Source of the DNA: Siphonodentalium dalli
Taxonomy: Eukaryota; Mollusca; Scaphopoda; Gadilida; Siphonodentaliidae
Direction: 5' to 3'
Assembly: GCA_032622095.1 (NCBI GenBank)
Contig: CP136062.1
Coordinates: 52,965,349-53,029,348, forward strand
Length of the DNA stretch: 64,000 bases
Part shown: one piece after another, positions 16,201 to 51,909 of the stretch
Position numbering within the stretch: position 1 is the stretch's first letter
How the letters are laid out: every line of letters starts with the position of its first letter
Notes under the pieces: generated by a model
Database searches by the model: none
Told to the model about the DNA's origin: nothing
The model's input: only the letters and a program-made list of their open reading frames with translations
Translations under genes and position numbers: made by a program

Positions 16201-17030
16201 ACTTCGTATTTTGTTGGGGGCATTACTTCTTATTTTGTTGGGGGTATTACTTCGTATTTTGTTGGGGGGTATTACTTCGTTCGAGTTGATTTTGTTGGGG
16301 GTATTACTTCGTATTTTGTTGGGGGGTATTACTTCGTATTTTGTTGGGGGCATTACTTCGTATTTTGTTGGGGCATTACTTCGTATTTTGTTGGGGGGTA
16401 TTACTTCGTATTTTGTTGGGGGCATTACTTCGTATTTTGTTGGGGGTATTACTTCGTATTTTGTTGGGGGGGTATTACTTCGTATTTTGTTGGGGGGTAT
16501 TACTTCGTATTTTGTTGGGGGTATTACTTCGTTCGAGTTGATTTTGTTGGGGGTATTACTTGGTATTTTGTTGGGGGTATTACTTGGTATTTTGTTGGGG
16601 GTATTACTTGGTATTTTGTTGGGGGCATTACTTCGTATTTTGTTGGGGGCATTACTTCGTATTTTGTGGGGGCCATTACTTCGTATTTTGTTGGGGGCAT
16701 TACTTCGTATTTTGTTGGGGGCATTACTTCGTATTTTGTTGGGGGAATTACTTCGTATTTTGTTGGGGGCATTACTGCGTATTTTGTTGTGGTATTACTT
16801 CGTATTTTGTTGGGGGTATTACTTCGTATTTTGTTTGGGGCATTACTTCGTATTTTGTTGGGGCATTACTTCGTATTTTGTTGGGGGAATTACTTCGTAT
16901 TTTGTTGGGGGTATTACTTCGTATTTTGTTGGGGGCATTACTTCGTATTTTGTTGGGGGTATTACTTCGTATTTTGTTGGGGGTATTACTTCGTATTTTG
17001 TTGGGGGTATTACTTCGTATTTTGTTGGGG
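13230..17030 (+). repeat. Satellite HOR block with copies offset 3300 bp
   Basis: A run of CTTGGTATT units followed by GTGGGGGCCATTAC, GGGGGAATTACTTC, ATTACTGCGT and TTGTGGTATTAC occurs from about 13230 and again, in the same order, from about 16530. The second copy and its surroundings contain many units with one additional G, so the rare-variant order is kept while unit lengths drift. Related copies of the same module appear near 34542 and 36751. Confidence 0.82.
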
Positions 17031-20000
17031 TATTACTTCGTATTTTGTTGGGGGGTATTACTTCGTATTTTGTTGGGGGTATTACTTCGTATTTTGTTGG
17101 GGGGTAATACTTCGTATTTTGTTGGGGGTATTACTTCGTATTTTGTTGGGGGTATTACTTCGTATTTTGTTGGGGTTATTACTTCGTATTTTGTTGGGGG
17201 TATTACTTCGTATTTTGTTGGGGGTATTACTTCGTATTTTGTTGGGGGTATTACTTCGTATTTTGTTGGGGGTATTACTTCGTATTTTGTTTGGGGTATT
17301 ACTTCGTATTTTGTTGGGGGTATTACTTCGTATTTTGTTGGGGGTATTACTTCGTATTTTGTTGGGGGGCATTACTTCGTATTTTGTTGGGGGTATTACT
17401 TCGTATTTTGTTGGGGGTATTACTTCGTTCGAGTTGATTTTGTTGGGGGTATTACTTCGTATTTTGTTGGGGGTATTACTTCGTATTTTGTTGGGGGCAT
17501 TACTTCGTATTTTGTTGGGGGCATTACTTCGTATTTTGTTGGGGGTATTACTTCGTATTTTGTTGGGGGGTATTACTTCGTATTTTGTTGGGGGTATTAC
17601 TTCGTATTTTGATGGCCTCGTATTTTGTTGGGGGCATTACTTCGTATTTGTTGGGGGCCTTACTTAGTATTTTGTTGGGGGCATTACTTCGTATTTTTAT
17701 TGGGGGGCATTACTTCGTATTTTGTTGGGGGTATTACTTCGTATTTTGTTGGGGGTATTACTTCGTATTTTGTTGGGGCATTACTTCGTATTTTGTTGGG
17801 GGTATTACTTCGTATTTTGTTGGGGGTATTACTTCGTATTTTGTTGGGGGTATTACTTCGTTCGAGTTTATTTTGTTGGGGGTATTACTTCGTATTTTGT
17901 TGGGGGCATTACTTCGTATTTTTATTGGGGGCATTACTTCGTATTTTGTTGGGGACATTACTTCGTGTTTTGTTGGAGGTATTACTTCGTATTTTGTTGG
18001 GGGTATTACTTCGTATTTTGTTGGGGGGTATTACTTCGTATTTTGTTGTGGGCATTACTTCGTATTTTGTTGGGGGTATTACTTCGTAATTTGTTGGGGG
18101 GTATTACTTCGTTCGAGTTGATTTTGTTGGGGGTATTACTCCGTATTTTGTTGGGGGTATTACTTCGTATTTTGTTGGGGGCATTACTTCGTATTTTGTT
18201 GGGGGTATTACTTCGTATTTTGTTGGGGGTATTACTTCGTATTTTGTTGGGGGGTATTACTTCGTATTTTGTTGGGGGTATTACTTCGTATTTTGTTTGG
18301 GGTATTACTTCGTATTTTGTTGGGGTATTACTTCGTATTTTGTTGGGGGTATTACTTCGTATTTTGTGGGGGCATTACTTCGTATTTTGTTGGGGGTATT
18401 ACTTCGTATTTTGTTGGGGGTATTACTTCGTTCGAGTTGATTTTGTTGGGGGTATTACTTCGTATTTTGTTGGGGGTATTACTTCGTATTTTGTTGGGGG
18501 CATTACTTCGTATTTTGTTGGGGGCATTACTTCGTATTTTGTTGGGGGTATTACTTCGTATTTTGTTGGGGGTATTACTTCGTATTTTGTTGGGGGTATT
18601 ACTTCGTATTTTGATGGGGGCATTACCTCGTATTTTTGTTGGGGGCATTACTTCGTATTTTGTTGGGGGCCTTACTTAGTATTTTGTTGGGGGCATTACT
18701 TCGTATTTTTTATTGGGGGCATTACTTCGTATTTTGTTGGGGGTATTACTTCGTATTTTGTTGGGGGTATTACTTCGTATTTTGTTGGGGGCATTACTTC
18801 GTATTTTGTTGGGGGGTATTACTTCGTATTTTGTTGGGGGTATTACTCGTATTTTGTTGGGGGTATTACTTCGTTCGAGTTTATTTTGTTGGGGGTATTA
18901 CTTCGTATTTTGTTGGGGGCATTACTTCGTATTTTTATTGGGGGCATTACTTCGTATTTTGTTGGGGACATTACTTCGTGTTTTGTTGGAGGTATTACTT
19001 CGTATTTTGTTGGGGGTATTACTTCGTATTTTGTTGGGGGGTATTACTTCGTATTTTGTTGGGGGCATTACTTCGTATTTTGTTGGGGGTATTATTTCGT
19101 AATTTGTTGGGGGTATTACTTCGTTCGAGTTGATTTTGTTGGGGGTATTACTCCGTATTTTGTTGGGGGTATTACTTCGTATTTTGTTGGGGGCATTACT
19201 TCGTATTTTGTTGGGGGCATTACTTCGTATTTTGTTGGGGGTATTACTTCGTATTTTGTTGGGGGTATTACTTCTTATTTTGTTGGGGGCATTACTTCGT
19301 ATTTTGTTGGGGGTATTACTTCGTATTTTGTTGGGGGCATTACTTCGTATTTTGTTGGGGGTATTACTTCGTATTTTGTTGGGGGCATTACTTCGTATTT
19401 TGTTGGGGGCATTACTTCGTATTTTGTTGGGGGTATTACTTCGTATTTTGTTGGGGGTATTACTTCGTTCGAGTTGATTTTGTTGGGGGTATTACTTCGT
19501 ATTTTGTTGGGGGCATTACTTCGTATTTTTATTGGGGGCATTACTTCGTATTTTGTTGGGGACATTACTTCGTGTTTTGTTGGGGGTATTACTTCGTATT
19601 TTGTTGGGGGTATTACATCGTATTTTGTTGGGGGCATAACTTCCTATTTTGTTGGAGGTATTACTTCGTATTTTGTTGGGGGTATTACTTCGTTCGAGTT
19701 GATTTTGTTGGGGGTATTACTCCGTATTTTGTTGGGGGTATTACTTCGTATTTTGTTGGGGGCATTACTTCGTATTTTGTTGGGGGCATTACTTCGTATT
19801 TTGTTGGGGGTATTACTTCGTATTTTGTTGGGGGTATTACTTCTTATTTTGTTGGGGGCATTACTTCGTATGTTGTTGGGGGTATTACTTCGTATTTTGT
19901 TGGGGGCATTACTTCGTATTTTGTTGGGGGTATTACTTCGTATTTTGTTGGGGGCATTACTTCGTATTTTGTTGGGGGCATTACTTCGTATTTTGTTGGG

Positions 20001-23000
20001 GGCATTACTTCGTATTTTGTTGGGGGCATTACTTCGTATTTTGTTGGGGGTATTACTTCGTATTTTGTTGGGGGTATTACTTCGTATTTTGTTGGGGGCA
20101 TTACTTCGTATTTTGTTGGGGGCATTACTTCGTATTTTGTTGGGGGTATTACTTCGTATTTTGTTGGGGGTATTACTTCGTTCGAGTTGATTTTGTTGGG
20201 GGTATTACTTCGTATTTTGTTGGGGGTATTACTTCGTATTTTGTTGGGGGCATTACTTCGTATTTTGTTGGGGGCATTACTTCGTATTTTGTTGGGGGTA
20301 TTACTTCGTATTTTGTTGGGGGTATTACTTCGTATTTTGTTGGGGGTATTACTTCGTATTTTGATGGGGGCATTACCTCGTATTTTGTTGGGGGCATTAC
20401 TTCGTATTTTGTTGGGGGCCTTACTTAGTATTTTGTTGGGGGCATTACTTCGTATTTTTATTGGGGGCATTACTTCGTATTTTGTTGGGGGTATTACTTC
20501 GTATTTTGTTGGGGGTATTACTTCGTATTTTGTTGGGGGCATTACTTCGTATTTTGTTGGGGGTATTACTTCGTATTTTGTTGGGGGTATTACTTCGTAT
20601 TTTGTTGGGGGTATTACTTCGTTCGAGTTTATTTTGTTGGGGGTATTACTTCGTATTTTGTTGGGGGCATTACTTCGTATTTTTATTGGGGGCATTACTT
20701 CGTATTTTGTTGGGGACATTACTTCGTGTTTTGTTGGAGGTATTACTTCGTATTTTGTTGGGGGTATTACTTCGTATTTTGTTGGGGGGTATTACTTCGT
20801 ATTTTGTTGGGGGCATTACTTCGTATTTTGTTGGGGGTATTACTTCGTAATTTGTTGGGGGTATTACTTCGTTCGAGTTGATTTTGTTGGGGGTATTACT
20901 CCGTATTTTGTTGGGGGTATTACTTCGTATTTTGTTGGGGGCATTACTTCGTATTTTGTTGGGGGCATTACTTCGTATTTTGTTGGGGGTATTACTTCGT
21001 ATTTTGTTGGGGGTATTACTTCTTATTTTGTTGGGGGCATTACTTCGTATTTTGTTGGGGGCATTACTTCGTATTTTGTTGGGGGCATTACTTCGTATTT
21101 TGTTGGGGGTATTACTTCGTATTTTGTTGGGGGTATTACTTCGTTCGAGTTGATTTTGTTGGGGGTATTACTTCGTATTTTGTTGGGGGCATTACTTCGT
21201 ATTTTTATTGGGGGCATTACTTCGTATTTTGTTGGGGACATTACTTCGTGTTTTGTTGGGGGTATTACTTCGTATTTTGTTGGGGGTATTACATCGTATT
21301 TTGTTGGGGGCATAACTTCCTATTTTGTTGGAGGTATTACTTCGTATTTTGTTGGGGGTATTACTTCGTTCGAGTTGATTTTGTTGGGGGTATTACTCCG
21401 TATTTTGTTGGGGGTATTACTTCGTATTTTGTTGGGGGCATTACTTCGTATTTTGTTGGGGGCATTACTTCGTATTTTGTTGGGGGTATTACTTCGTATT
21501 TTGTTGGGGGTATTACTTCTTATTTTGTTGGGGGCATTACTTCGTATGTTGTTGGGGGTATTACTTCGTATTTTGTTGGGGGCATTACTTCGTATTTTGT
21601 TGGGGGTATTACTTCGTATTTTGTTGGGGGCATTACTTCGTATTTTGTTTGGGGCATTACTTCGTATTTTGTTGGGGGCATTACTTCGTATTTTGTTGGG
21701 GGCATTACTTCGTATTTTGTTGGGGGTATTACTTCGTATTTTGTTGGGGGTATTACTTCGTATTTTGTTGGGGGCATTACTTCGTATTTTGTTGGGGGCA
21801 TTACTTCGTATTTTGTTGGGGGCATTACTTCGTATTTTGTTGGGGGTATTACTTCGTATTTTGTTTGGGGGCATTACTTCGTATTTTGTTGGGAGTATTA
21901 CTTCGTATTTTGTTGGGGGTATTACTTCGTTTGAGTTGATTTTGTTGCGGGTATTACTTCGTATTTTGTTGGGGGTATTACTTCGTATTTTGTTGGGGGC
22001 ATTACTTCGTATTTTGTTGGGGCATTACTTCGTATTTTGTTGGGGGCATTACTTCGTATTTTGTTGGAGGCATTACTTCGTATTTTGTTGGGGGTATTAC
22101 TTCGTATTTTGTTGGGGGTATTACTTCATATTTTGTTGGGGGTATTACTTGGTATTTTGTTGGGGGTATTACTTCGTTCGAGTTGATTTTGTTGGGGGTA
22201 TTACTTGGTATTTTGTTGGGGGTATTACTTGGTATTTTGTTGGGGGCACTACTTCGTATTTTGTTGGGGGCATTACTTCGTATTTTGTGGGGGGCATTAC
22301 TTCGTATTTTGTTGGGGGTATTACTTCGTTCGAGTTGATTTTGTTGGGGGCATTACTTCATATTTTGTTGGGGGTGTTACTTCGTATTTTGTTGGGGGTA
22401 TTACTTCGTTCGAGTTGATTTTGTTGGGGGTATTACTTCGTATTTTGTTGGGGGTATTACTTCGTATTTTGTTGGGGGCATTACTTCGTATTTTGTTGGG
22501 GCATTACTTCGTATTTTGTTGGGGGTATTACTTCGTATTTTGATGGGGGCATTACCTCGTATTTTGTTGGGGGCATTACTTCGTATTTTGTTGGGGCATT
22601 ACTTCGTATTTTGTTGGGGGCATTACTTCGTATTTTTATTGGGGGCATTACTTCGTATTTTGTTGGGGGTATTACTTCGTATTTTGTTGGGGGTATTACT
22701 TCGTATTTTGTTGGGGGCATTACTTCGTATTTTGTTGGGGGTATTACTTCGTATTTTGTTGGGGGTATTACTTCGTATTTTGTTGGGGGTATTACTTCGT
22801 ATTTTGTTGGGGGTATTACTTCGTATTTTGTTGGGGGTATTACTTCGTTCGAGTTTATTTTGTTGGGGGTATTACTTCGTATTTTGTTGGGGGCATTACT
22901 TCGTATTTTTATTGGGGGCATTACTTCGTATTTTGTTGGGGACATTACATCGTGTTTTGTTGGAGGTATTACTTCGTATTTTGTTGGGGGTATTACTTCG

Positions 23001-26000
23001 TATTTTGTTGGGGGGTATTACTTCGTATTTTGTTGGGGGCATTACTTCGTATTTTGTTGGGGGTATTACTTCGTAATTTGTTGGGGGTATTACTTCGTTC
23101 GAGTTGATTTTGTTGGGGGTATTACTCCGTATTTTGTTGGGGGTATTACTTCGTATTTTGTTGGGGGCATTACTTCGTATTTTGTTGGGGGCATTACTTC
23201 GTATTTTGTTGGGGGTATTACTTCGTATTTTGTTGGGGGTATTACTTCTTATTTTGTTGGGGGCATTACTTCGTATTTTGTTGGGGGTATTACTTCGTAT
23301 TTTGTTGGGGGCATTACTTCGTATTTTGTTGGGGGTATTACTTCGTATTTTGTTGGGGGCATTACTTCGTATTTTGTTGGGGGCATTACTTCGTATTTTG
23401 TTGGGGGTATTACTTCGTATTTTGTTGGGGGTATTACTTCGTTCGAGTTGATTTTGTTGGGGGTATTACTTCGTATTTTGTTGGGGGCATTACTTCGTAT
23501 TTTTATTGGGGGCATTACTTCGTATTTTGTTGGGGACATTACTTCGTGTTTTGTTGGGGGTATTACTTCGTATTTTGTTGGGGGTATTACATCGTATTAT
23601 GTTGGGGGCATAACTTCGTATTTTGTTGGGGGCATTACTTCGTATTTTTATTGGGGGCATTACTTCGTATTTTGTTGGGGACATTACTTCGTGTTTTGTT
23701 GGGGGTATTACTTCGTATTTTGTTGGGGGTATTACATCGTATTTTGTTGGGGGCATAACTTCCTATTTTGTTGGAGGTATTACTTCGTATTTTGTTGGGG
23801 GTATTACTTCGTATTTTGTTGGGGGTATTACATCGTATTTTGTTGGGGGCATAACTTCCTATTTTGTTGGAGGTATTACTTCGTATTTTGTTGGGGGTAT
23901 TACTTCGTTCGAGTTGATTTTATTGGGGGTATTACTCCGTATTTTGTTGGGGGTATTACTTCGTATTTTGTTGGGGGCATTACTTCGTATTTTGTTGGGG
24001 GCATTACTTCGTATTTTGTTGGGGGTATTACTTCGTATTTTGTTGGGGGTATTACTTCTTATTTTGTTGGGGGCATTACTTCGTATGTTGTTGGGGGTAT
24101 TACTTCGTATTTTGTTGGGGGCATTACTTCGTATTTTGTTGGGGGTAGTACTTCGTATTTTGTTGGGGGCATTACTTCGTATTTTGTTGTTGGCATTACT
24201 TCGTATTTTGTTGGGGGCATTACTTCGTATTTTGTTGGGGGCATTACTTCGTATTTTGTTGGGGGTATTACTTCGTATTTTGTTGGGGGTATTACTTCGT
24301 ATTTTGTTGGGGGCATTACTTCGTATTTTGTTGGGGGCATTACTTCGTATTTTGTTGGGGGCATTACTTCGTATTTTGTTGGGGGTATTACTTCGTATTT
24401 TGTTTGAGGGCATTACTTCGTATTTTGTTGGGAGTATTACTTCGTATTTTGTTGGGGGTATTACTTCGTTTGAGTTGATTTTGTTGCGGGTATTACTTCG
24501 TATTTTGTTGGGGGTATTACTTCGTATTTTGTTGGGGGCATTACTTCGTATTTTGTTGGGGCATTACTTCGTATTTTGTTGGGGGCATTACTTCGTATTT
24601 TGTTGGAGGCATTACTTCGTATTTTGTTGGGGGTATTACTTCGTATTTTGTTGGGGGTATTACTTCATCATATTTGTTGGGGGTATTACTTCGTATTTTG
24701 TTGGGGGTATTACTTCGTTCGAGTTGATTTTGTTGGGGGTATTACTTGGTATTTTGTTGGGGGTATTACTTCGTTCGAGTTGATTTTGTTGGGGGTATTA
24801 CTTGGTATTTTGTTGGGGGTATTACTTGGTATTTTGTTGGGGGCACTACTTCGTATTTTGTTGGGGGCATTACTTCGTATTTTGTGGGGGGCATTACTTC
24901 GTATTTTGTTGGGGGTATTACTTCGTTCGAGTTGATTTTGTTGGGGGCATTACTTCGTATTTTGTTGGGGGTATTACTTCGTATTTTGTTGGGGGTATTA
25001 CTTCGTTCGAGTTGATTTTGTTGGGGGTATTACTTCGTATTTTGTTGGGGGTATTACTTCGTATTTTGTTGGGGGCATTACTTCGTATTTTGTTGGGGCA
25101 TTACTTCGTATTTTGTTGGGGGTATTACTTCGTATTTTGATGGGGGCATTACCTCGTATTTTGTTGGGGGCATTACTTCGTATTTTGTTGGGGGCATTAC
25201 TTCGTATTTTGTTGGGGGCATTACTTCGTATTTTTATTGGGGGCATTACTTCGTATTTTGTTGGGGGTATTACTTCGTATTTTGTTGGGGGTATTACTTC
25301 GTATTTTGTTTGGGGGCATTACTTCGTATTTTGTTGGGGGTATTACTTCGTATTTTGTTGGGGGTATTACTTCGTATTTTGTTGGGGGTATTACTTCGTA
25401 TTTTGTTGGGGGTATTACTTCGTATTTTGTTGGGGGTATTACTTCGTTCGAGTTTATTTTGTTGGGGGTATTACTTCGTATTTTGTTGGGGGCATTACTT
25501 CGTATTTTTATAGGGGGCATTACTTCGTATTTTGTTGGGGACATTACTTCGTGTTTTGTTGGAGGTATTACTTCGTATTTTGTTGGGGGTATTACTTCGT
25601 ATTTTGTTGGGGGGTATTACTTCGTATTTTGTTGGGGGCATTACTTCGTATTTTGTTGGGGGTATTACTTCGTAATTTGTTGGGGGTATTACTTCGTTCG
25701 AGTTGATTTTGTTGGGGGTATTACTCCGTATTTTGTTGGGGGTATTACTTCGTATTTTGTTGGGGGCATTACTTCGTATTTTGTTGGGGGCATTACTTCG
25801 TATTTTGTTGGGGGTATTACTTCGTATTTTGTTGGGGGTATTACTTCTTATTTTGTTGGGGGCATTACTTCGTATTTTGTTGGGGGTATTACTTCGTATT
25901 TTGTTGGGGGCATTACTTCGTATTTTGTTGGGGGCATTACTTCGTATTTTGTTGGGGGCATTACTTCGTATTTTGTGGGGGGCATTACTTCGTATTTTGT

Positions 26001-27108
26001 TGGGGGTATTACTTCGTTCGAGTTGATTTTGTTGGGGGCATTACTTCGTATTTTGTTGGGGGTGTTACTTCGTATTTTGTTGGGGGCATTACTTCGTATT
26101 TTGTTGGGGGCATTACTTCGTATTTTTATTGGGGGCATTACTTCGTATTTTGTTGGGGGTATTACTTCGTATTTTGTTGGGGGTATTACTTCGTATTTTT
26201 ATTGGGGGCATTACTTCGTATTTTGTTGGGGGTATTACTTCGTATTTTGTTGGGGGTATTACTTCGTATTTTGTTGGGGGCATTACTTCGTATTTTGTTG
26301 GGGGTATTACTTCGTATTTTGTTGGGGGTATTACTTCGTATTTTGTTGGGGGTATTACTTCGTATTTTGTTGGGGGTATTACTTCGTATTTTGTTGGGGG
26401 TATTACTTCGTTCGAGTTTATTTTGTTGGGGGTATTACTTCGTATTTTGTTGGGGGCATTACTTCGTATTTTTATTGGGGGCATTACTTCGTATTTTGTT
26501 GGGGACATTACTTCGTGTTTTGTTGGAGGTATTACTTCGTATTTTGTTGGGGGTATTACTTCGTATTTTGTTGGGGGGTATTACTTCGTATTTTGTTGGG
26601 GGCATTACTTCGTATTTTGTTGGGGGTATTACTTCGTAATTTGTTGGGGGTATTACTTCGTTCGAGTTGATTTTGTTGGGGGTATTACTCCGTATTTTGT
26701 TGGGGGTATTACTTCGTATTTTGTTGGGGGCATTACTTCGTATTTTGTTGGGGGCATTACTTCGTATTTTGTTGGGGGTATTACTTCGTATTTTGTTGGG
26801 GGTATTACTTCTTATTTTGTTGGGGGCATTACTTCGTATTTTGTTGGGGGTATTACTTCGTATTTTGTTGGGGGCATTACTTCGTATTTTGTTGGGGGTA
26901 TTACTTCGTATTTTGTTGGGGGCATTACTTCGTATTTTGTTGGGGGCATTACTTCGTATTTTGTTGGGGGTATTACTTCGTATTTTGTTGGGGGTATTAC
27001 TTCGTTCGAGTTGATTTTGTTGGGGGTATTACTTCGTATTTTGTTGGGGGCATTACTTCGTATTTTTATTGGGGGCATTACTTCGTATTTTGTTGGGGAC
27101 ATTACTTC

Positions 27109-29895
27109 GTGTTTTGTTGGGGGTATTACTTCGTATTTTGTTGGGGGTATTACATCGTATTATGTTGGGGGCATAACTTCGTATTTTGTTGGGGGCATTA
27201 CTTCGTATTTTGTTGGGGGTATTACTTCGTAATTTGTTGGGGGTATTTCTTCGTTCGAGTTGATTTTGTTGGGGGTATTACTTCGTATTTTGTTGGGGGC
27301 ATTACTTCGTATTTTTATTGGGGGCATTACTTCGTATTTTGTTGGGGACATTACTTCGTGTTTTGTTGGGGGTATTACTTCGTATTTTGTTGGGGGTATT
27401 ACATCGTATTTTGTTGGGGGCATAACTTCCTATTTTGTTGGAGGTATTACTTCGTATTTTGTTGGGGGTATTACTTCGTATTTTGTTGGGGGTATTACAT
27501 CGTATTTTGTTGGGGGCATAACTTCCTATTTTGTTGGAGGTATTACTTCGTATTTTGTTGGGGGTATTACTTCGTTCGAGTTGATTTTGTTGGGGGTATT
27601 ACTCCGTATTTTGTTGGGGGTATTACTTCGTATTTTGTTGGGGGCATTACTTCGTATTTTGTTGGGGGCATTACTTCGTATTTTGTTGGGGGTATTACTT
27701 CGTATTTTGTTGGGGGTATTACTTCTTATTTTGTTGGGGGCATTACTTCGTATGTTGTTGGGGGTATTACTTCGTATTTTGTTGGGGGCATTACTTCGTA
27801 TTTTGTTGGGGGTATTACTTCGTATTTTGTTGGGGGCATTACTTCGTATTTTGTTGGGGGCATTACTTCGTATTTTGTTGGGGGCATTACTTCGTATTTT
27901 GTTGGGGGCATTACTTCGTATTTTGTTGGGGGTATTACTTCGTATTTTGTTGGGGGCATTACTTCGTATTTTGTTGGGGGCATTACTTCGTATTTTGTTG
28001 GGGGCATTACTTCGTATTTTGTTGGGGGTATTACTTCGTATTTTGTTGGGGGTATTACTTCGTATTTTGTTGGGGGCATTACTTCGTATTTTGTTGGGGG
28101 CATTACTTCGTATTTTGTTGGGGGCATTACTTCGTATTTTGTTGGGGGTATTACTTCGTATTTTGTTTGGGGGCATTACTTCGTATTTTGTTGGGAGTAT
28201 TACTTCGTATTTTGTTGGGGGTATTACTTCGTTTGAGTTGATTTTGTTGCGGGTATTACTTCGTATTTTGTTGGGGGTATTACTTCGTATTTTGTTGGGG
28301 GCATTACTTCGTATTTTGTTGGGGCATTACTTCGTATTTTGTTGGGGGCATTACTTCGTATTTTGTTGGAGGCATTACTTCGTATTTTGTTGGGGGTATT
28401 ACTTCGTATTTTGTTGGGGGTATTACTTCATATTTTGTTGGGGGTATTACTTCGTATTTTGTTGGGGGTATTACTTCGTTCGAGTTGATTTTGTTGGGGG
28501 TATTATTGGTATTTTGTTGGGGGTATTACTTCGTTCGAGTTGATTTTGTTGGGGGTATTACTTGGTATTTTGTTGGGGGTATTACTTGGTATTTTGTTGG
28601 GGGCACTACTTCGTATTTTGTTGGGGGCATTACTTCGTATTTTGTGGGGGGCATTACTTCGTATTTTGTTGGGGGTATTACTTCGTTCGAGTTGATTTTG
28701 TTGGGGGCATTACTTCGTATTTTGTTGGGGGTATTACTTCGTATTTTGTTGGGGGTATTACTTCGTTCGAGTTGATTTTGTTGGGGGTATTATTTCGTAT
28801 TTTGTTGGGGGTATTACTTCGTATTTTGTTGGGGGCATTACTTCGTATTTTGTTGGGGCATTACTTCGTATTTTGTTGGGGGTATTACTTCGTATTTTGA
28901 TGGGGGCATTACCTCGTATTTTGTTGGGGGCATTAATTCGTATTTTGTTGGGGGCATTACTTCGTATTTTGTTGGGGGCATTACTTCGTATTTTTATTGG
29001 GGGCATTACTTCGTATTTTGTTGGGGGTATTACTTCGTATTTTGTTGGGGGTATTACTTCGTATTTTGTTGGGGGCATTACTTCGTATTTTGTTGGGGGT
29101 ATTACTTCGTATTTTGTTGGGGGTATTACTTCGTATTTTGTTGGGGGTATTACTTCGTATTTTGTTGGGGGTATTACTTCGTATTTTGTTGGGGGTATTA
29201 CTTCGTTCGAGTTTATTTTGTTGGGGGTATTACTTCGTATTTTGTTGGGGGCATTACTTCGTATTTTTATTGGGGGCATTACTTCGTATTTTGTTGGGGA
29301 CATTACTTCGTGTTTTGTTGGAGGTATTACTTCGTATTTTGTTGGGGGTATTACTTCGTATTTTGTTGGGGGGGTATTACTTCGTATTTTGTTGGGGGCA
29401 TTACTTCGTATTTTGTTGGGGGTATTACTTCGTAATTTGTTGGGGGTATTACTTCGTTCGAGTTGATTTTGTTGGGGGTATTACTCCGTATTTTGTTGGT
29501 GGTATTACTTCGTATTTTGTTGGGGGCATTACTTCGTATTTTGTTGGGGGCATTACTACGTATTTTGTTGGGGGTATTACTTCGTATTTTGTTGGGGGTA
29601 TTACTTCTTATTTTGTTGGGGGCATTACTTCGTATTTTGTTGGGGGTATTACTTCGTCTTTTGTTGGGGGCATTACTTCGTATTTTGTTGGGGGTATTAC
29701 TTCGTATTTTGTTGGGGGCATTACTTCGTATTTTGTTGGGGGCATTACTTCGTATTTTGTTGGGGGTATTACTTCGTATTTTGTTGGGGGTATTACTTCG
29801 TTCGAGTTGATTTTGTTGGGGGTATTACTTCGTATTTTGTTGGGGGCATTACTTCGTATTTTTATTGGGGGCATTACTTCGTATTTTGTTGGGGG
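27109..29895 (+). repeat. Large satellite HOR, copy 1 (offset about 3222-3245 bp)
   Basis: Rare-unit order from about 27109 to 29895 is repeated at about 30354-33117. The offset is 3245 bp in the left part and 3222 bp in the right part, so one copy differs by a small block in between. Shared rare features include ATTACATCG, GGCATAACTTCC, TATGTTGTTGG, the TTTGAG form of the 32-bp unit and a unit with seven consecutive G (near 29369 and 32591). Confidence 0.85.
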
Positions 29896-30353
29896 TATTA
29901 CTTCGTATTTTGTTGGGGGTATTACTTCGTTCGAGTTGATTTTGTTGGGGGTATTACTTCGTATTTTGTTGGGGGCATTACTTCGTATTTTGTTGGGGGC
30001 ATTACTTCGTATTTTGTTGGGGGTATTACTTCGTATTTTGTTGGGGGTATTACTTCTTATTTTGTTGGGGGCATTACTTCGTATTTTGTTGGGGGTATTA
30101 CTTCGTATTTTGTTGGGGGCATTACTTCGTATTTTGTTGGGGGTATTACTTCGTATTTTGTTGGGGGCATTACTTCGTATTTTGTTGGGGGCATTACTTC
30201 GTATTTTGTTGGGGGTATTACTTCGTATTTTGGTGGGGGTATTACTTCGTTCGAGTTGATTTTGTTGGGGGTATTACTTCGTATTTTGTTGGGGGCATTA
30301 CTTCGTATTTTTATTGGGGGCATTACTTCGTATTTTGTTGGGGACATTACTTC

Positions 30354-33117
30354 GTGTTTTGTTGGGGGTATTACTTCGTATTTTGTTGGGGGTATTACAT
30401 CGTATTATGTTGGGGGCATAACTTCGTATTTTGTTGGGGGCATTACTTCGTATTTTGTTGGGGGTATTACTTCGTAATTTGTTGGGGGTATTACTTCGTT
30501 CGAGTTGATTTTGTTGGGGGTATTACTTCGTATTTTGTTGGGGGCATTACTTCGTATTTTTATTGGGGGCATTACTTCGTATTTTGTTGGGGACATTACT
30601 TCGTGTTTTGTTGGGGGTATTACTTCGTATTTTGATGGGGGTATTACATCGTATTTTGTTGGGGGCATAACTTCCTATTTTGTTGGAGGTATTACTTCGT
30701 ATTTTGTTGGGGGTATTACTTCGTATTTTGTTGGGGGTATTACATCGTATTTTGTTGGGGGCATAACTTCCTATTTTGTTGGAGGTATTACTTCGTATTT
30801 TGTTGGGGGTATTACTTCGTTCGAGTTGATTTTGTTGGGGGTATTACTCCGTATTTTGTTGGGGGTATTACTTCGTATTTTGTTGGGGGCATTACTTCGT
30901 ATTTTGTTGGGGGCATTACTTCGTATTTTGTTGGGGGTATTACTTCGTATTTTGTTGGGGGTATTACTTCTTATTTTGTTGGGGGCATTACTTCGTATGT
31001 TGTTGGGGGTATTACTTCGTATTTTGTTGGGGGCATTACTTCGTATTTTGTTGGGGGTATTACTTCGTATTTTGTTGGGGGCATTACTTCGTATTTTGTT
31101 GGGGGCATTACTTCGTATTTTGTTGGGGGCATTACTTCGTATTTTGTTGGGGGTATTACTTCGTATTTTGTTGGGGGTATTACTTCGTATTTTGTTGGGG
31201 GCATTACTTCGTATTTTGTTGGGGGCATTACTTCGTATTTTGTTGGGGGTATTACTTCGTATTTTGTTGGGGGTATTACTTCGTATTTTGTTGGGGGCAT
31301 TACTTCGTATTTTGTTGGGGGCATTACTTCGTATTTTGTTGGGGGCATTACTTCGTATTTTGTTGGGGGTATTACTTCGTATTTTGTTTGGGGGCATTAC
31401 TTCGTATTTTGTTGGGAGTATTACTTCGTATTTTGTTGGGGGTATTACTTCGTTTGAGTTGATTTTGTTGCGGGTATTACTTCGTATTTTGTTGGGGGTA
31501 TTACTTCGTATTTTGTTGGGGGCATTACTTCGTATTTTGTTGGGGCATTACTTCGTATTTTGTTGGGGGCATTACTTCGTATTTTGTTGGAGGCATTACT
31601 TCGTATTTTGTTGGGGGTATTACTTCGTATTTTGTTGGGGGTATTACTTCATATTTTGTTGGGGGTATTACTTCGTATTTTGTTGGGGGTATTACTTCGT
31701 TCGAGTTGATTTTGTTGGGGGTATTACTTGGTATTTTGTTGGGGGTATTACTTCGTTCGAGTTGATTTTGTTGGGGGTATTACTTGGTATTTTGTTGGGG
31801 GTATTACTTGGTATTTTGTTTGGGGCACTACTTCGTATTTTGTTGGGGGCATTACTTCGTATTTTGTGGGGGGCATTACTTCGTATTTTGTTGGGGGTAT
31901 TACTTCGTTCGAGTTGATTTTGTTGGGGGCATTACTTCGTATTTTGTTGGGGGTATTACTTCGTATTTTGTTGGGGGTATTACTTCGTTCGAGTTGATTT
32001 TGTTGGGGGTATTATTTCGTATTTTGTTGGGGGTATTACTTCGTATTTTGTTGCGGGCATTACTTCGTATTTTGTTGGGGCATTACTTCGTATTTTGTTG
32101 GGGGTATTACTTCGTATTTTGATGGGGGCATTACCTCGTATTTTGTTGGGGGCATTAATTCGTATTTTGTTGGGGGCATTACTTCGTATTTTGTTGGGGG
32201 CATTACTTCGTATTTTTATTGGGGGCATTACTTCGTATTTTGTTGGGGGTATTACTTCGTATTTTGTTGGGGGTATTACTTCGTATTTTGTTGGGGGCAT
32301 TACTTCGTATTTTGTTGGGGGTATTACTTCGTATTTTGTTGGGGGTATTACTTCGTATTTTGTTGGGGGTATTACTTCGTATTTTGTTGGGGGTATTACT
32401 TCGTATTTTGTTGGGGGTATTACTTCGTTCGAGTTTATTTTGTTGGGGGTATTACTTCGTATTTTGTTGGGGGCATTACTTCGTATTTTTATTGGGGGCA
32501 TTACTTCGTATTTTGTTGGGGACATTACTTCGTGTTTTGTTGGAGGTATTACTTCGTATTTTGTTGGGGGTATTACTTCGTATTTTGTTGGGGGGGTATT
32601 ACTTCGTATTTTGTTGGGGGCATTACTTCGTATTTTGTTGGGGGTATTACTTCGTAATTTGTTGGGGGTATTACTTCGTTCGAGTTGATTTTGTTGGGGG
32701 TATTACTCCGTATTTTGTTGGGGGTATTACTTCGTATTTTGTTGGGGGCATTACTTCGTATTTTGTTGGGGGCATTACTACGTATTTTGTTGGGGGTATT
32801 ACTTCGTATTTTGTTGGGGGTATTACTTCTTATTTTGTTGGGGGCATTACTTCGTATTTTGTTGGGGGTATTACTTCGTCTTTTGTTGGGGGCATTACTT
32901 CGTATTTTGTTGGGGGTATTACTTCGTATTTTGTTGGGGGCATTACTTCGTATTTTGTTGGGGGCATTACTTCGTATTTTGTTGGGGGTATTACTTCGTA
33001 TTTTGTTGGGGGTATTACTTCGTTCGAGTTGATTTTGTTGGGGGTATTACTTCGTATTTTGTTGGGGGCATTACTTCGTATTTTTATTGGGGGCATTACT
33101 TCGTATTTTGTTGGGGA
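30354..33117 (+). repeat. Large satellite HOR, copy 2
   Basis: Partner of the block at about 27109-29895, with the same rare units in the same order. Related versions with larger offsets (for example 3760 bp from the 24.8-25.1 kb region to the 28.6-28.9 kb region) lie to the left, so the 24-34 kb part of the array is a series of kilobase-scale modules. Confidence 0.85.
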
Positions 33118-34544
33118 CATTACTTCGTGTTTTGTTGGGGGTATTACTTCGTATTTTGTTGGGGGTATTACATCGTATTATGTTGGGGGCATAACTTCCT
33201 ATTTTGTTGGGGGTATTACTTCCTATTTTGTTGGGGGTATTACTTCGTTCGAGTTGATTTTGTTGGGGGTATTACTCCGTATTTTGTTGGGGGTATTACT
33301 TCGTATTTTGTTGGGGGCATTACTTCGTATTTTGTTGGGGGCATTACTTCGTATTTTGTTGGGGGTATTACTTCGTATTTTGTTGGGGGTATTACTTCGT
33401 ATTTTGTTGGGGGCATTACTTCGTATTTTGTTGGGGGTATTAGTTCGTATTTTGTTGGGGGCATTACTTCGTATTTTGTTGGGGGTATTACTTCGTATTT
33501 TGTTGGGGGCATTACTTCGTATTTTGTTGGGGGCATTACTTCGTATTTTGTTGGGGGCATTACTTCGTATTTTGTTGGGGGCATTACTTCGTATTTTGTT
33601 GGGGGTATTACTTCGTATTTTGTTGGGGGTATTACTTCGTATTTTGTTGGGGGCATTACTTCGTATTTTGTTGGGGGCATTACTTCGTATTTTGTTGGGG
33701 GTATTACTTCGTATTTTGTTTGGGGGCATTACTTCGTATTTTGTTGGGAGTATTACTTCGTATTTTGTTGGGGGTATTACTTCGTTTGAGTTGATTTTGT
33801 TGCGGGTATTACTTCGTATTTTGTTGGGGGTATTACTTCGTATTTTGTTGGGGGCATTACTTCGTATTTTGTTGGGGCATTACTTCGTATTTTGTTGGGG
33901 GCATTACTTCGTATTTTGTTGGAGGCATTACTTCGTATTTTGTTGGGGGTATTACTTCGTATTTTGTTGGGGGTATTACTTCATATTTTGTTGGGGGTAT
34001 TACTTCGTATTTTGTTGGGGGTATTACTTCGTTCGAGTTGATTTTGTTGGGGGTATTACTTGGTATTTTGTTGGGGGTATTACTTGGTATTTTGTTGGGG
34101 GCACTACTTCGTATTTTGTTGGGGGCATTACTTCGTATTTTGTGGGGGGGGCATTACTTCGTATTTTGTTGGGGGTATTACTTCGTTCGAGTTGATTTTG
34201 TTGGGGGCATTACTTCGTATTTTGTTGGGGGTATTACTTCGTATTTTGTTGGGGGTATTACTTCGTTCGAGTTGATTTTGTTGGGGGTATTACTTCGTAT
34301 TTTGTTGGGGGTATTACTTCGTATTTTGTTGGGGGCATTACTTCGTATTTTGTTGGGGCATTACTTCGTATTTTGTTGGGGGTATTACTTCGTATTTTGT
34401 TGGGGGCATTACTTCGTATTTTGTTGGGGGTATTACTTCGTATTTTGTTGGGGGGTATTACTTCGTATTTTGTTGGGGGTATTACTTCGTATTTTGTTGG
34501 GGGTATTACTTCGTTCGAGTTGATTTTGTTGGGGGTATTACTTG

Positions 34545-36620
34545 GTATTTTGTTGGGGGTATTACTTGGTATTTTGTTGGGGGTATTACTTGGTATTTTG
34601 TTGGGGGCATTACTTCGTATTTTGTTGGGGGCATTACTTCGTATTTTGTGGGGGGCATTACTTCGTATTTTGTTGGGGGCATTACTTCGTATTTTGTTGG
34701 GGGCATTACTTCGTATTTTGTTGGGGGCATTACTTCGCATTTTGTTGGGGGCATTACTTCGTATTTTGTTGATGGCATTACTGCGTATTTTGTTGTGGTA
34801 TTACTTCGTATTTTGTTGGGGGTATTACTTCGTATTTTGTTTGGGGCATTACTTCGTATTTTGTTGGGGTATTACTTCGTATTTTGTTGGGGGAATTACT
34901 TCGTATTTTGTTGGGGGTATTACTTCGTATTTTGTTGGGGGCATTACTTCGTATTTTGTTGGGGGTATTACTTCGTATTTTGTTGGGGGTATTACTTCGT
35001 ATTTTGTTGGGGGTATTACTTCGTATTTTGTTGGGGGTATTACTTCGTATTTTGTTGGGGGTATTACTTCGTATTTTGTTGGGGGTATTACTTCGTATTT
35101 TGTTGGGGGTAATACTTCGTATTTTGTTGGGGGTATTACTTCGTATTTTGTTGGGGGCATTACTTCGTATTTTGTTGGGGTTATTACTTCGTATTTTGTT
35201 GGGGGTATTACTTCATATTTTGTTGGGGGTATTACTTCGTATTTTGTTGGGGGTATTACTTCGTATTTTGTTGGGGGTATTACTTCGTATTTTGTTTGGG
35301 GTATTACTTCGTATTTTGTTGGGGGTATTACTTCGTATTTTATTGGGGGTATTACTTCGTATTTTGTTGGGGGCATTACTTCGTATTTTGCTGGGGGTAT
35401 TACTTCGTATTTTGTTGGGGGTATTACTTCGTTCGAGTTGATTTTGTTGGGGGTATTACTTCGTATTTTGTTGGGGGTATTACTTCGTATTTTGTTGGGG
35501 GCATTACTTCGTATTTTGTTGGGGGCATTACTTCGTATTTTGTTGGGGGTATTACTTCGTATTTTGTTGGGGGTATTACTTCGTATTTTGTTGGGGGTAT
35601 TACTTCGTATTTTGATGGGGGCATTACCTCGTATTTTGTTGGGGGCATTACTTCGTATTTTATTGGGGGCATTACTTCGTATTTTGTTGGGGGCATTACT
35701 TCGTATTTTTATTGGGGGCATTACTTCGTATTTTGTTGGGGGTATTACTTCGTATTTTGTTGGGGGCATTACTTCGTATTTTGTTGGGGGTATTACTTCG
35801 TATTTTGTTGGGGGTATTACTTCGTATTTTGTTGGGGGTATTACTTCGTTCGAGTTTATTTTGTTGGGGGTATTACTTCGTATTTTGTTGGGGGCATTAC
35901 TTCGTATTTTTATTGGGGGCATTACTTCGTATTTTGTTGGGGACATTACTTCGTGTTTTGTTGGAGGTATTACTTCGTATTTTGTTGGGGGTATTACTTC
36001 GTATTTTGTTGGGGGGTATTACTTCGTATTTTGTTGGGGGCATTACTTCGTATTTTGTTGGGGGTATTACTTCGTATTTTGTTGGGGGTATTACTTCGTT
36101 CGAGTTGATTTTGTTGGGGGTATTACTCCGTATTTTGTTGGGGGTATTACTTCGTATTTTGTTGGGGGCATTACTTCGTATTTTGTTGGGGGCATTACTT
36201 TGTATTTTGTTGGGGGTATTACTTCGTATTTTGTTGGGGGTATTACTTCTTATTTTGTTGGGGGCATTACTTCGTATTTTGTTGGGGGTATTACTTCGTA
36301 TTTTGTTGGGGGCATTACTTCGTATTTTGTTGGGGGTATTACTTCGTATTTTGTTGGGGGCATTACTTCGTATTTTGTTGGGGGCATTACTTCGCATTTT
36401 GTTGGGGGCATTACTTCTTATTTTGTTGGGGGCATTACTTCGTATTTTGTTGGGGGTATTACTTCGTATTTTGTTGGGGGTATTACTTCGTATTTTGTTG
36501 GGGGCATTACTTCGTATTTTGTTGGGGGCATTACTTCGTATTTTGTTGGGGGCATTACTTCGTATTTTGTTGGGGGTATTACTTCGTATTTTGTTGGGGG
36601 CATTACTTCGTATTTTGTTG
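34545..36620 (+). repeat. Satellite segmental duplication, copy 1 (offset 2185 bp)
   Basis: This region is repeated at about 36730-38805. Rare units match at a constant 2185-bp offset: TTGATGGCATTACTGCG, a GGGGTAATACTTCG unit, TTGCTGGGGGTATT, an ACTTTGTATT unit near 36199 and 38384, and TTCGCATTTTG near 36391 and 38576. I saw almost no differences within the aligned part, so this looks like the most recent large duplication in the array. Confidence 0.88.
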
Positions 36621-36720
36621 GGGGCATTACTTCGCATTTTGTTGGGGGCATTACTTCTTATTTTGTTGGGGGCATTACTTCGTATTTTGTTGGGGGTATT
36701 ACTTCGTATTTTGTTGGGGG
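36361..36720 (+). repeat. 240-bp (ten-unit) duplication inside the satellite
   Basis: The pair TTCGCATTTTG then ATTACTTCTTATTTTG at about 36391-36420 is repeated exactly 240 bp later at about 36631-36660, with identical intervening unit order. The downstream 2185-bp copy has this pair only once (about 38576), so the ten-unit duplication is specific to the first copy or was lost from the second. Confidence 0.85.
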
Positions 36721-36729
36721 TATTACTTC

Positions 36730-38805
36730 GTATTTTGTTGGGGGTATTACTTGGTATTTTGTTGGGGGTATTACTTGGTATTTTGTTGGGGGCATTACTT
36801 CGTATTTTGTTGGGGGCATTACTTCGTATTTTGTGGGGGGCATTACTTCGTATTTTGTTGGGGGCATTACTTCGTATTTTGTTGGGGGCATTACTTCGTA
36901 TTTTGTTGGGGGCATTACTTCGCATTTTGTTGGGGGCATTACTTCGTATTTTGTTGATGGCATTACTGCGTATTTTGTTGTGGTATTACTTCGTATTTTG
37001 TTGGGGGTATTACTTCGTATTTTGTTTGGGGCATTACTTCGTATTTTGTTGGGGTATTACTTCGTATTTTGTTGGGGGAATTACTTCGTATTTTGTTGGG
37101 GGTATTACTTCGTATTTTGTTGGGGGCATTACTTCGTATTTTGTTGGGGGTATTACTTCGTATTTTGTTGGGGGTATTACTTCGTATTTTGTTGGGGGTA
37201 TTACTTCGTATTTTGTTGGGGGTATTACTTCGTATTTTGTTGGGGGTATTACTTCGTATTTTGTTGGGGGTATTACTTCGTATTTTGTTGGGGGTAATAC
37301 TTCGTATTTTGTTGGGGGTATTACTTCGTATTTTGTTGGGGGCATTACTTCGTATTTTGTTGGGGTTATTACTTCGTATTTTGTTGGGGGTATTACTTCA
37401 TATTTTGTTGGGGGTATTACTTCGTATTTTGTTGGGGGTATTACTTCGTATTTTGTTGGGGGTATTACTTCGTATTTTGTTTGGGGTATTACTTCGTATT
37501 TTGTTGGGGGTATTACTTCGTATTTTATTGGGGGTATTACTTCGTATTTTGTTGGGGGCATTACTTCGTATTTTGCTGGGGGTATTACTTCGTATTTTGT
37601 TGGGGGTATTACTTCGTTCGAGTTGATTTTGTTGGGGGTATTACTTCGTATTTTGTTGGGGGTATTACTTCGTATTTTGTTGGGGGCATTACTTCGTATT
37701 TTGTTGGGGGCATTACTTCGTATTTTGTTGGGGGTATTACTTCGTATTTTGTTGGGGGTATTACTTCGTATTTTGTTGGGGGTATTACTTCGTATTTTGA
37801 TGGGGGCATTACCTCGTATTTTGTTGGGGGCATTACTTCGTATTTTATTGGGGGCATTACTTCGTATTTTGTTGGGGGCATTACTTCGTATTTTTATTGG
37901 GGGCATTACTTCGTATTTTGTTGGGGGTATTACTTCGTATTTTGTTGGGGGCATTACTTCGTATTTTGTTGGGGGTATTACTTCGTATTTTGTTGGGGGT
38001 ATTACTTCGTATTTTGTTGGGGGTATTACTTCGTTCGAGTTTATTTTGTTGGGGGTATTACTTCGTATTTTGTTGGGGGCATTACTTCGTATTTTTATTG
38101 GGGGCATTACTTCGTATTTTGTTGGGGACATTACTTCGTGTTTTGTTGGAGGTATTACTTCGTATTTTGTTGGGGGTATTACTTCGTATTTTGTTGGGGG
38201 GTATTACTTCGTATTTTGTTGGGGGCATTACTTCGTATTTTGTTGGGGGTATTACTTCGTATTTTGTTGGGGGTATTACTTCGTTCGAGTTGATTTTGTT
38301 GGGGGTATTACTCCGTATTTTGTTGGGGGTATTACTTCGTATTTTGTTGGGGGCATTACTTCGTATTTTGTTGGGGGCATTACTTTGTATTTTGTTGGGG
38401 GTATTACTTCGTATTTTGTTGGGGGTATTACTTCTTATTTTGTTGGGGGCATTACTTCGTATTTTGTTGGGGGTATTACTTCGTATTTTGTTGGGGGCAT
38501 TACTTCGTATTTTGTTGGGGGTATTACTTCGTATTTTGTTGGGGGCATTACTTCGTATTTTGTTGGGGGCATTACTTCGCATTTTGTTGGGGGCATTACT
38601 TCTTATTTTGTTGGGGGCATTACTTCGTATTTTGTTGGGGGTATTACTTCGTATTTTGTTGGGGGTATTACTTCGTATTTTGTTGGGGGCATTACTTCGT
38701 ATTTTGTTGGGGGCATTACTTCGTATTTTGTTGGGGGCATTACTTCGTATTTTGTTGGGGGTATTACTTCGTATTTTGTTGGGGGCATTACTTCGTATTT
38801 TGTTG
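36730..38805 (+). repeat. Satellite segmental duplication, copy 2 (offset 2185 bp)
   Basis: Right partner of the block at about 34545-36620. It starts within a run of CTTGGTATT units and stays in register until about 38805, after which unique unit order resumes for the last 490 bp of the array. Confidence 0.88.
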
Positions 38806-39307
38806 GGGGTATTACTTCGTATTTTGTTGTGGGTATTACTTCGTTCGAGTTGATTTTGTTGGGGGTATTACTTCGTATTTTGTTGGGGGCATTACTTCGT
38901 ATTTTGTTGGGGCATTACTTCGTATTTTGTTGGGGGCATTACTTCGTATTTTGTTGGGGGCATTACTTCGTATTTTGTTGGGGGTATTACTTCGTATTTT
39001 GTTGGGGGTATTACTTCATATTTTGTTGGGGGCATTACTTCGTATTTTGTTGGGGGTATTACTTGGTATTTTGTTGGGGGCATTACTTCGTATTTTGTTG
39101 GGGGTATTACTTCGTATTTTGTTGGGGGTATTACTTCGTATTTTGTTGGGGGCATTACTTCGTATTTTGTTGGGGGTATCACTTCGTATTTTGTTGGGGG
39201 TATTACTTCGTATTTTGTTGGGGGTATTACTTCGTATTTTGTTGGGGGTATTACTTCGTATTTTGTTGGGGGTATTACTTCGTTCGAGTTGATTTTCAGT
39301 GATGTCC

Positions 39308-39907
39308 TTAAAGGGGTACTGTACGCCATTTTCAATAAATTCCCGGTGATAACAACGATCTATTATCGATACTATATAGAAATATAAGTAATTTGAGTCG
39401 AAGATGTATTCTGTAAACGCTCAGGTTAATAGGCTATCTTAAAATTTAATAATTTAAAAGTTAATAATTTAATATAAATTGATTTTATGGCTCCAGCCAT
39501 AAAATGGCGTCTCTTAAAATTCGAATTTCCGTGTACAAAACGTAATCAAATTATAATTGAGGGATACCGGATTAGGAAAACAATTGCACACACGATCGTT
39601 TGAAACATTATGCTTATACGGGGAGAAAACCCAAGCCATTCATTGACTAGTGACGGTACACTAACTTAAATGAGTATATGGGACTACTAACCATATAATA
39701 TAATGTTTATTTGATTCATTTGGTTGAAAACTTTACAAAAATTACTCGACAACGACAATTTGTATTTTTGCATTCCGGTAAATTTGCCATCCGTAAAAAT
39801 ACTTCGTACTCAACAAACTTTCAAAAAATTGAAAAGTTGTTACATTATTCTCCGACTCGGGGATTATAGAAACCAACAACAACACCTTGGGTACAGTACC
39901 CCTTTAA
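39308..39907. mobile_element. TTAA-flanked inverted-repeat element (MITE-like, 600 bp)
   Basis: A 17-bp sequence TTAAAGGGGTACTGTAC at 39308-39324 is matched by its perfect inverse GTACAGTACCCCTTTAA at 39891-39907. Reading the outer TTAA as a target duplication leaves 13-bp terminal repeats starting AGGGG, the arrangement expected of piggyBac-type or other TTAA-targeting non-autonomous elements. The inside is AT-rich and has no convincing coding frame. It starts 12 bp after the last satellite unit. The family assignment is inference from TSD and TIR only. Confidence 0.75.
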
Positions 39908-42078
39908 CTATCCAACTATCGCAATGAATATTTGGACAATATAAATACACAAGTAAATGGTGATGTATTTATATTCTACTCGATGTAAATTTTCGTCGTA
40001 ATTGTCTTTACTAAACACATGCATCTTCAGGAAAGATTAAGAAATGAAACTGTCATCATATATAAGACTTCTATGAGTCGAATTCAAAACTGAGCGAAAA
40101 CAATTACAGCGTGATATACGAGTAAGGTACACGCGATCGCAGGTAAAACATGGCAAATTCCGAGATTTAAACTCCGAATCTCCTTGAAAATATATTTTTT
40201 CCATATGCGATTTGTGAAGTATCCGATAGAACATTTGGGATAGTACATTATTATGAGATTTTGGAAAATATAGAACAAATTCGAAGGTTGAAATTGCCAG
40301 GCTTGATGTCGTGCCGCACACTCGAGCAAATAATGAGTCGATGTATGTGTCCAATCATGCGCCACCCGATGGGAACCGGTCCTGTTAGATATAATTATAC
40401 ATGTTTGGATCTAGCCTTATATTCGATAACATCTGACCGCCGCTACGCGGCAGAATTAATTTTTCTTGGATGCAGTCGCACTTTTCAAGACAGAAGACTT
40501 AAGAGTTACCAGAAGTACGTCCATGCGCCCTTATCTGACACCTTGAATATCCAAGATAAATATATTTCAGTTATTTCAAAATTGGAGTAAAATATCTCCA
40601 GAAATTCACCATATAGTACAGAAAATACGCCTCGTACACAAATTCCTTCAAACATCGTTATTTTGCATATATGGTTGACTGCACAGACATAAGTTATCGT
40701 CGACAAACTGTTCAATGGATCGAACAACAAAACGGCGAATCAACACTCCTGCTACACATATTTTATGTTTTGCGTGTGCGGAGAATTGTGTAGGGTACAA
40801 CTTACACCTGAATGTCTCGACACGATGGTCCAGTCTTCATTCGTTTCGGGTACAGTTTAAAAAGTGAATGTCGGTAGACTATAGATAAAATAATGCATCA
40901 TTCTTGTGAATGATGGCCTCTCTAGCGAGATGCACGGGTTCTGTAAATAATTGACGCGCGTTAAAGGGACGGGCGGTCTTCGTTGTAGGTTACAATATAG
41001 AAATAACAGTTATCAAATTATGATAACTTCTTCTAAAATATACTAATGTTATAGCATAATGATGATATGAATGCGATATTATTCACAAAACATGCTTTGT
41101 TTCATAGAAAATGAAGGTCGTGTTTTGTTTTTGTTTGTCACAAAAAAGTGCAGTTAATTGTGTATAAGCAGTATCACGATAGTGCGTAATGTCCTTATTT
41201 AGATTCGCGTGCATTGTACGCGAGGTTCTAAGACCCCTAATTTGGTGCGTCTACAACTTGCAACTCACAATACTAACATATAATAAATTCGTTATTTTTT
41301 ATGTATTACCACATATGAGTTGGAGAAAATACTAAATAAAATATTAATCTCTTTGCAAAGAACAATCATAACATGTACGCGATTTCTGTAACGTGGTATG
41401 ATTTGAATGCGATTTATATTCGCCGTCAACAGCGCAACGGAACATTGTCATTTTTCATTTTCATAGTTCCGAGTGTTTGTCTAAACAAATGGTTTTGTAA
41501 CGTTTTTATGTTTTTCGACATAACAAAGCGTACACATGTGACAATAACATGCAATGTACGCGAATTCCATGATTGGTATAAGAACAATATCTGTATATTA
41601 TATAATATTCTTTCTGTTTATGGCAGTTTTAGTGGACGTGACTACATGTATTTTAACAGCTATACCAACCGGGAAGTCCGCCCGTATCATAATGAACTTT
41701 TAGAATTATTTTCATGAGCATTTAAATATCAGCACATTTTCAAAGCACCGCCGCAAAACCTTTATTAACAAAACATAGTACAGTGAAACAATTTAATAGG
41801 ATCAATTATAAATCAGGTTAAAACAAACCTAAATCAATCTTACTTAATAAATTAATAATGAACAGTCATCATGATTTATCGTTTATCATCCGGATTTCAG
41901 TTTGGGTTACTTTATGGGAATAATGTAAGAAATATATGCTTTTCCTTTGTAAATAATATATAACAGAACAACATTACGACACATCACTATCAAACGTATG
42001 TATGTAAATGTGTTTGCATTAAATAAATTTTTGTCTGAAATAAACTATAATAATAATAATACTAACTAGAATGAAATT
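39908..42078. other. AT-rich intergenic DNA without recognisable genes
   Basis: Only short open frames occur, the longest about 114 codons at 41373-41717. None shows a domain I recognise. One dispersed repeat lies near 40361-40410 (listed separately). A short hairpin CATCATTC/GAATGATG is present near 40894-40913. Confidence 0.6.
40361..40410 (+). repeat. Dispersed repeat fragment shared in inverse orientation
   Basis: The core GATGGGAACCGGTCCTG followed by TTAGATATAATTATAC and TGTTTGGAT is found in reverse complement at about 49661-49713 and again in its duplicate at about 52170-52222, at roughly 80% identity by eye. It marks an unidentified dispersed repeat family. Confidence 0.6.
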
Positions 42079-51894: not shown

Positions 51895-51909
51895 CGTTCT
51901 GATGGAACG

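Follow-up and report, generated by a model that had tools for sequence, protein, structure and literature searches.

A 24-bp tandem array in the genome of Siphonodentalium dalli ends on its right side in a 32-bp unit that recurs 91 times in the array interior, and a five-unit paralogous array ends in an identical edge. The internal long units are all connected to the following repeat at one joining point, for the most part share blocks of identical neighbouring units, and are linked to a single allele. We assign a probability of about 0.7 to an origin of these units by edge capture, where a 24-bp array that had grown beside a single-copy flank would have incorporated the start of this flank in its expanded copy, followed by the duplication of blocks.

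A giant minisatellite and its right edge

The analysed stretch of DNA, termed the window, comprises 64,000 nucleotides (C2:52965349-53029348) of a genome of 2.23 Gb in 9 contigs. In a wraparound parse, the entire array extends from C2:52962421, left of the window, to C2:53004639 and contains 1,727 units over 42,219 bp, arranged head-to-tail in a single orientation (Table 1). The unit has a length of 24 bp (ATTTTGTTGGGGGTATTACTTCGT). By the same parse, 1,635 of the 1,727 units are short, with a length of exactly 24 bp in 1,523, and 92 units, the edge and 91 in the interior, are long (90 with exactly 32 bp and 2 with 33 bp). With its short unit and long head-to-tail run, the array shows the features of a tandem array under unequal exchange, its copy number differs between the paralogous loci (5 vs 1,727 units), and variants are organized in multi-unit blocks as found in concerted evolution, which is manifested in the blocks shared between long units and in their linkage at a distance of +10 units. 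A dispersed satellite would populate many chromosomal sites, whereas all 1,561 matches of a unit pattern (up to three mismatches in 31 bases, searched outside masked stretches) reside at one locus pair, and single-locus giant minisatellite is thus a better name than dispersed satellite DNA. We have also considered a protein-coding repeat and rejected it: several frames are open, yet the lengths of 202 of the 1,727 units are not multiples of three and break the frame. The placement of long units is uneven, with 8 located in the first 600 of the 1,727 units and 84 in the remainder, and the final 27 units of the array comprise 8 distinct forms.

At window positions 39279-39307, the edge reads TTCGT-TCGAGTTG-ATTTT-CAGTGATGTCC. 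The eight bases TCGAGTTG that distinguish long from short units are exact in 70 of the 92 long units including the edge and carry one change in the other 22. The 15-mer GTTCGAGTTGATTTT is found 70 times on the forward strand of the window, at the edge and at 69 internal places, and 0 times on the reverse strand. The original prediction that the edge has the same sequence as a recurrent internal 32-bp unit is thus borne out, and its estimate of about 80 internal copies comes near the true number of 69 exact copies, or 88 with variants, inside the window. In a search of the whole genome with a long-unit pattern of 28 bases and up to three mismatches, we identified 93 copies, one at the end of the paralogous array and 92 in the large array, of which 89 are in the window if the edge is included; a recount in the fetched region agrees. 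ATTTT directly follows the long unit in all 91 internal cases, and ATTTTGTT follows in 88 of them. None of the 7-mers from the next 11 flank bases (39297-39307) is present in the array body.

Table 1. Positions of the array, its right edge and the adjoining features in the window.
Feature	Position	Strand	Basis or remark
24-bp satellite/minisatellite array, part in the window	1..39291	+	wraparound parse, left edge read, TRF
Terminal (edge) unit, 32 bp in the ATTTT... rotation	39260..39291	+	sequence read, wraparound parse
TCGAGTTG, '8-bp insert' of long units, best read as right-flank start	39284..39291	+	same bases end the 5-unit sister array
ATTTT, 5-bp microhomology between flank and unit start, joining point of internal long units	39292..39296	+	91/91 internal long units
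CAGTGATGTCC, continuation of the flank, absent inside the array	39297..39307	+	7-mer check of array body; sister array: CAATGATGTCC
TTAA target site, left copy	39308..39311		sister locus: empty site with one TTAA
592-bp dispersed TTAA element (MITE), starting 20 bp past the end of the edge unit	39312..39903		terminal inverted repeat AGGGGTACTGTAC; sister locus without the element
TTAA target site, right copy	39904..39907		target duplication
Right flank common to the sister locus	39908..41375		97% identity over first 1.34 kb, 94% over last 139-bp block

The DNA beyond the edge had been described as unique, but it actually consists of 11 bp of flank and a TTAA followed by a dispersed 592-bp element. 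This element is delimited by 13-bp inverted ends and a TTAA duplication, and the paralogous locus contains the corresponding empty site with one TTAA. A TTAA precedes the element both here and at each of the three further loci that were read (4/4), with differing left flanks beyond it. Of 1,521 candidates of a genome search, 40 were scored, and all 40 are 99-100% identical; the element is young and abundant. Judging by its TTAA target and its inverted ends, it may be a MITE of the piggyBac type. There is no visible connection of the MITE to the long unit, but it explains the abrupt-looking edge. When comparing 128 bases of the right side, which reach into the MITE, with the array body, we found one MITE 8-mer, GTAATTTG, 13 times, and these matches are taken as chance because of the AATTTG form of the unit. 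A capture from the left flank was tried as well and rejected, as 8-mers of 122 left-flank bases are absent from the array body, where three 7-mers are present. On C1, copies of the MITE at positions 249233297, 249242987 and 249252677 show a spacing of exactly 9,690 bp, pointing to a 9.69-kb tandem segment.

A paralogous array with the same edge

The paralogous array, in the following referred to as sister array, lies to the left of the large array, at C2:52930648-52930775, with about 32 kb between the two. It comprises five units, of which the first four are short and the terminal one has 32 bp (TTCGTTCGAGTTGATTTTCAATGATGTCC), and the sequence then continues with ATTTTCAATGATGTCC. Its right end, TTCGT-TCGAGTTG-ATTTTCA, is the same as at the large array, and there is no long unit inside. 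Both arrays also start equally on the left, where GGAC is directly followed by ATTTTG. Since TTCGT passes into TCGAGTTGATTTTCARTGATG in both arrays, the most plausible reading of the eight bases TCGAGTTG is that they begin the ancestral right flank, and the sister array points to common descent rather than chance as the source of the identity between edge and internal units.

The sister array also bears on the view that a unit acquired a chance 8-bp insertion and that an accidental break inside a unit of this kind later created the present right edge of the array. The edge sequence by itself cannot tell flank from unit and is in this respect compatible with an insertion. However, with 92 of 1,727 units being long, an accidental ending on one of them would occur with a chance of about 5%, the break point aside, and the same end is found in the five-unit sister array, which together render this course of events highly improbable.

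Further arrays were looked for in searches of the genome. A 20-mer of the edge matched 7 places with up to two mismatches (2 for the reversed control pattern), which are the edge described here, the paralogous edge at C2:52930769 and five others; latter show two mismatches each, contain neither TTGTTGGGG nor such a repeat and were dropped. The unit pattern (31 bases, up to three mismatches, a threshold that more diverged arrays or masked stretches could escape) yielded 1,561 forward matches, 0 reverse matches and 0 for the reversed control, and a recount by the same rule assigned 4 of the 1,561 to the sister array and 1,557 to the large array. Neither the unit pattern nor the long-unit pattern revealed a third array in the genome. 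The available right array ends are thus two, which agree through the paralogy of their loci.

The paralogy extends into the flanks. For these, 40 of 3,294 candidates (right) and 40 of 3,548 candidates (left) were scored in genome searches, and the matches listed outside the two loci cover the query in part and resemble dispersed repeats. Between sister and large locus, the left flanks differ at 13 of 789 aligned sites (K2P divergence 1.7%) and the right flanks at 38 of 1,343 (2.9%). Within C2:52920001-53029348, the region to which the comparison was limited, shared blocks are found at about 52924519-52932417 and 52956317-53006723 with 24 kb of other DNA in between; the outer blocks could be dispersed repeats. 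Both arrays are carried by a duplicated local segment, whose two copies differ in their insertions. This block layout speaks for a real local duplication, and a false duplication of haplotypes in the assembly is a less likely alternative. We have considered the two loci as haplotypes, in which case the five-unit form would be an allele and the edge argument would be unaffected. The 24-bp units differ by 1.6% from the nearer of two consensus sequences, a value too close to the flank divergences to order the expansion of the array relative to the duplication of the locus.

Origin and spread of the internal long units

At a site that is either T or C in the short units (871 T, 657 C and 107 not scored), T is found in 92 of 92 long units, although array units are related by descent and a p value on units is not to be taken literally; an earlier scoring rule left one long unit unscored and counted 903 T, 669 C, 10 A and 53 unscored short units. 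Relatedness is equally apparent in the neighbourhood of long units. The longest two-sided block of identical units that an internal long unit shares with another one has a median of 14 units, compared to 4 in a control, which is based on consensus units and not matched in every respect. Such blocks encompass at least 10 units in 51 of the 91 internal long units and at least 5 units in 80, and a mean of 13 of 91 reach at least 10 units in the control, for which 91 consensus short units were drawn at random 50 times. The best shared runs are equal on both sides, with means of 9.1 (left) and 9.2 (right), which fits block duplication, whereas repeated capture at an end would result in sharing mainly on the left side. 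Further order is found in the spacing of long units, 24 of 92 being 10 units apart from another, compared to a maximum of 16 for any lag of 1-60 in 1,000 random placements. Within this range, 10 is the only lag above the random maximum. All units of the subtypes TCGAGTTT (GTTT type, 12/12) and TTGAGTTG (TTGAG type, 6/6) have another long unit at a distance of exactly 10 units further along, and this partner is of the AATTT type in 10 of the 12 TCGAGTTT cases.

Three observations are at variance with a single origin. The four leftmost long units form a separate subtype, TCGAGTAG, which could be a separate capture, and the long unit at index 792 shares no block exceeding 2 units. The edge has at most three units to its left in common with any internal long unit, and the captured context therefore either differs from the present edge or was rearranged since. 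Altogether, the 91 internal long units fit one capture through ATTTT that was followed by block duplication.

These relationships stand against the view of GTTCGAGTTG as a preferred breakpoint, or as a junction left by the excision and reinsertion of a circle, in which long units would have arisen many times independently at array ends. The common sequence of edge and internal units would be expected in this case, and a circle that pops out could create such a junction. However, the single joining point of all 91 internal units, the full linkage to the T allele and the blocks common to both sides are at odds with independent origins, just two array ends were found, which are related to each other, and a folded stretch of 108 bases at the edge is without single-strand structure. 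Recurrent breakage of this kind thus appears very unlikely, and an excision circle is not needed to explain the long units. The folding itself had been tried as a cause of breakage and was rejected, the 108-base stretch having a minimum energy of 0 on both strands with 200 of 200 shuffles folding at least as well. Of the original interpretation, the part that stands is that the 32-bp unit reflects a former array end and not a random 8-bp insertion, as TCGAGTTG ends both arrays and was re-amplified, while its suggestion of a preferred or recurrent breakpoint finds no support in view of the one joining point, the T allele and the blocks shared on both sides.

In the proposed edge capture, TCGAGTTGATTTT would have been single-copy DNA directly to the right of the founding repeat, and the 24-bp array would have grown to the left of it, ending against this flank throughout. 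A single exchange or template switch in the copy destined for expansion may then have linked the flank via ATTTT to the beginning of a unit further upstream; the presence of ATTTT at the junction of each of the 91 internal long units is consistent with the use of microhomology. The product would be an internal 32-bp unit composed of the 24-bp unit and the first 8 bases of the flank, and the duplication of multi-unit blocks, by unequal exchange or an equivalent process, would have generated the 91 internal copies. We infer from the described patterns that this was a single event, which pathway it took and that it succeeded the formation of the 24-bp array.

The order of events is reversed if the array was founded by a 32-bp unit. 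In this scenario, a 32-bp segment bordered by two ATTTT copies in the ancestral single-copy sequence would have been duplicated by slippage, the loss of 8 bp would have created the 24-bp unit that became dominant, and the internal 32-bp units would be survivors. The segment from ATTTT to ATTTT is exactly 32 bp long in the inferred single copy, thus offering 5 bp of microhomology for the first duplication, and the edge would then simply be the oldest unit. The presence of microhomology at the 32-bp junction and its absence at the 24-bp junction would suit such a founder and weigh against the capture, and so does the small number of five units in the sister array, whose missing internal long units could reflect loss. 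Conversely, the interior of the sister array contains only 24-bp junctions (4/4), and this junction, being found in both arrays, is at least as old as the duplication of the locus unless it was later converted. In the left third of the large array, few long units are found (8 in the first 600 units), and the C allele of 657 short units is found in no long unit. A 32-bp founder is thus unlikely, if less so than the explanations by insertion or recurrent breakage, and the sister array without internal long units favours the 24-bp array as first and the capture as second step.

Comparison with known repeat systems and further features of the window

The described relationships provide a well-preserved and clear example of a known process in repeat arrays. 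According to a review, new satellite repeats can originate from divergent repeat variants that are located at the ends of arrays and undergo amplification (PMC5615363). Similarly, an end variant was amplified in our case, here inside the same array, with the difference that some of its bases are read as flank and that a short paralogous array has the same edge. In higher-order arrays of alpha-satellites, crossovers are described to homogenise repeats and to expand them into domains and subdomains (PMC2853522), which resembles the movement of long units in shared blocks, although the unit studied here has 24 bp, resides at one locus and is organized in blocks that lack the regularity of a higher-order repeat. 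Tandem arrays of the yeast gene CUP1, compared in 101 natural isolates, are described as products of unequal nonhomologous recombination, with microhomology invasion followed by break-induced replication as one of the models in Figure 1 of that study (PMC4232551). There, the origin of arrays was inferred by comparing single-copy and array forms, a strategy resembling ours; in contrast to a gene in many isolates, our comparison concerns two paralogues in one genome that are both already arrays (PMC4232551). In Lathyrus, short tandem arrays in retrotransposons are reported to occasionally expand to satellite length (PMC7004042). A short pre-existing array and its expansion to satellite length are common to both cases, but the short array described here is defined by its position at a paralogous locus. 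Further neighbouring cases are contained in PMC4857426. Among the papers listed in literature searches, no title or abstract opening mentions the 24-bp repeat, which carries little weight.

The value of the locus lies in the clean pair formed by its paralogous 5-unit and 1,727-unit forms, whose paired edges allow one to attribute the additional 8 bp to the flank and to locate the joining point within five bases. This supports the view that array edges feed the interior with new variants and leaves the accepted model of tandem-repeat evolution unchanged. It is a speculative and very unlikely extension that array ends are a recurrent source of new satellite monomers, with the polymerase or exchange machinery leaving the array at its edge over and over, returning at the nearest microhomology and thereby seeding flank-bearing units; if true, array interiors would hold a readable record of past edges.

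Outside the array, an Rfam scan of window positions 39000-64000 gave no match. A two-copy tandem duplication of about 2.5 kb is located at 49399-54341, with parts at 99.7% and 97.9% identity. Open frames at 54343-55596 (forward strand) and 57413-57913 (reverse strand) match reverse transcriptases (Pfam RVT_1), and by their look we presume both to belong to non-LTR elements. Finally, an open frame on the reverse strand at 59212-59808 shows a weak match to a PAN domain.
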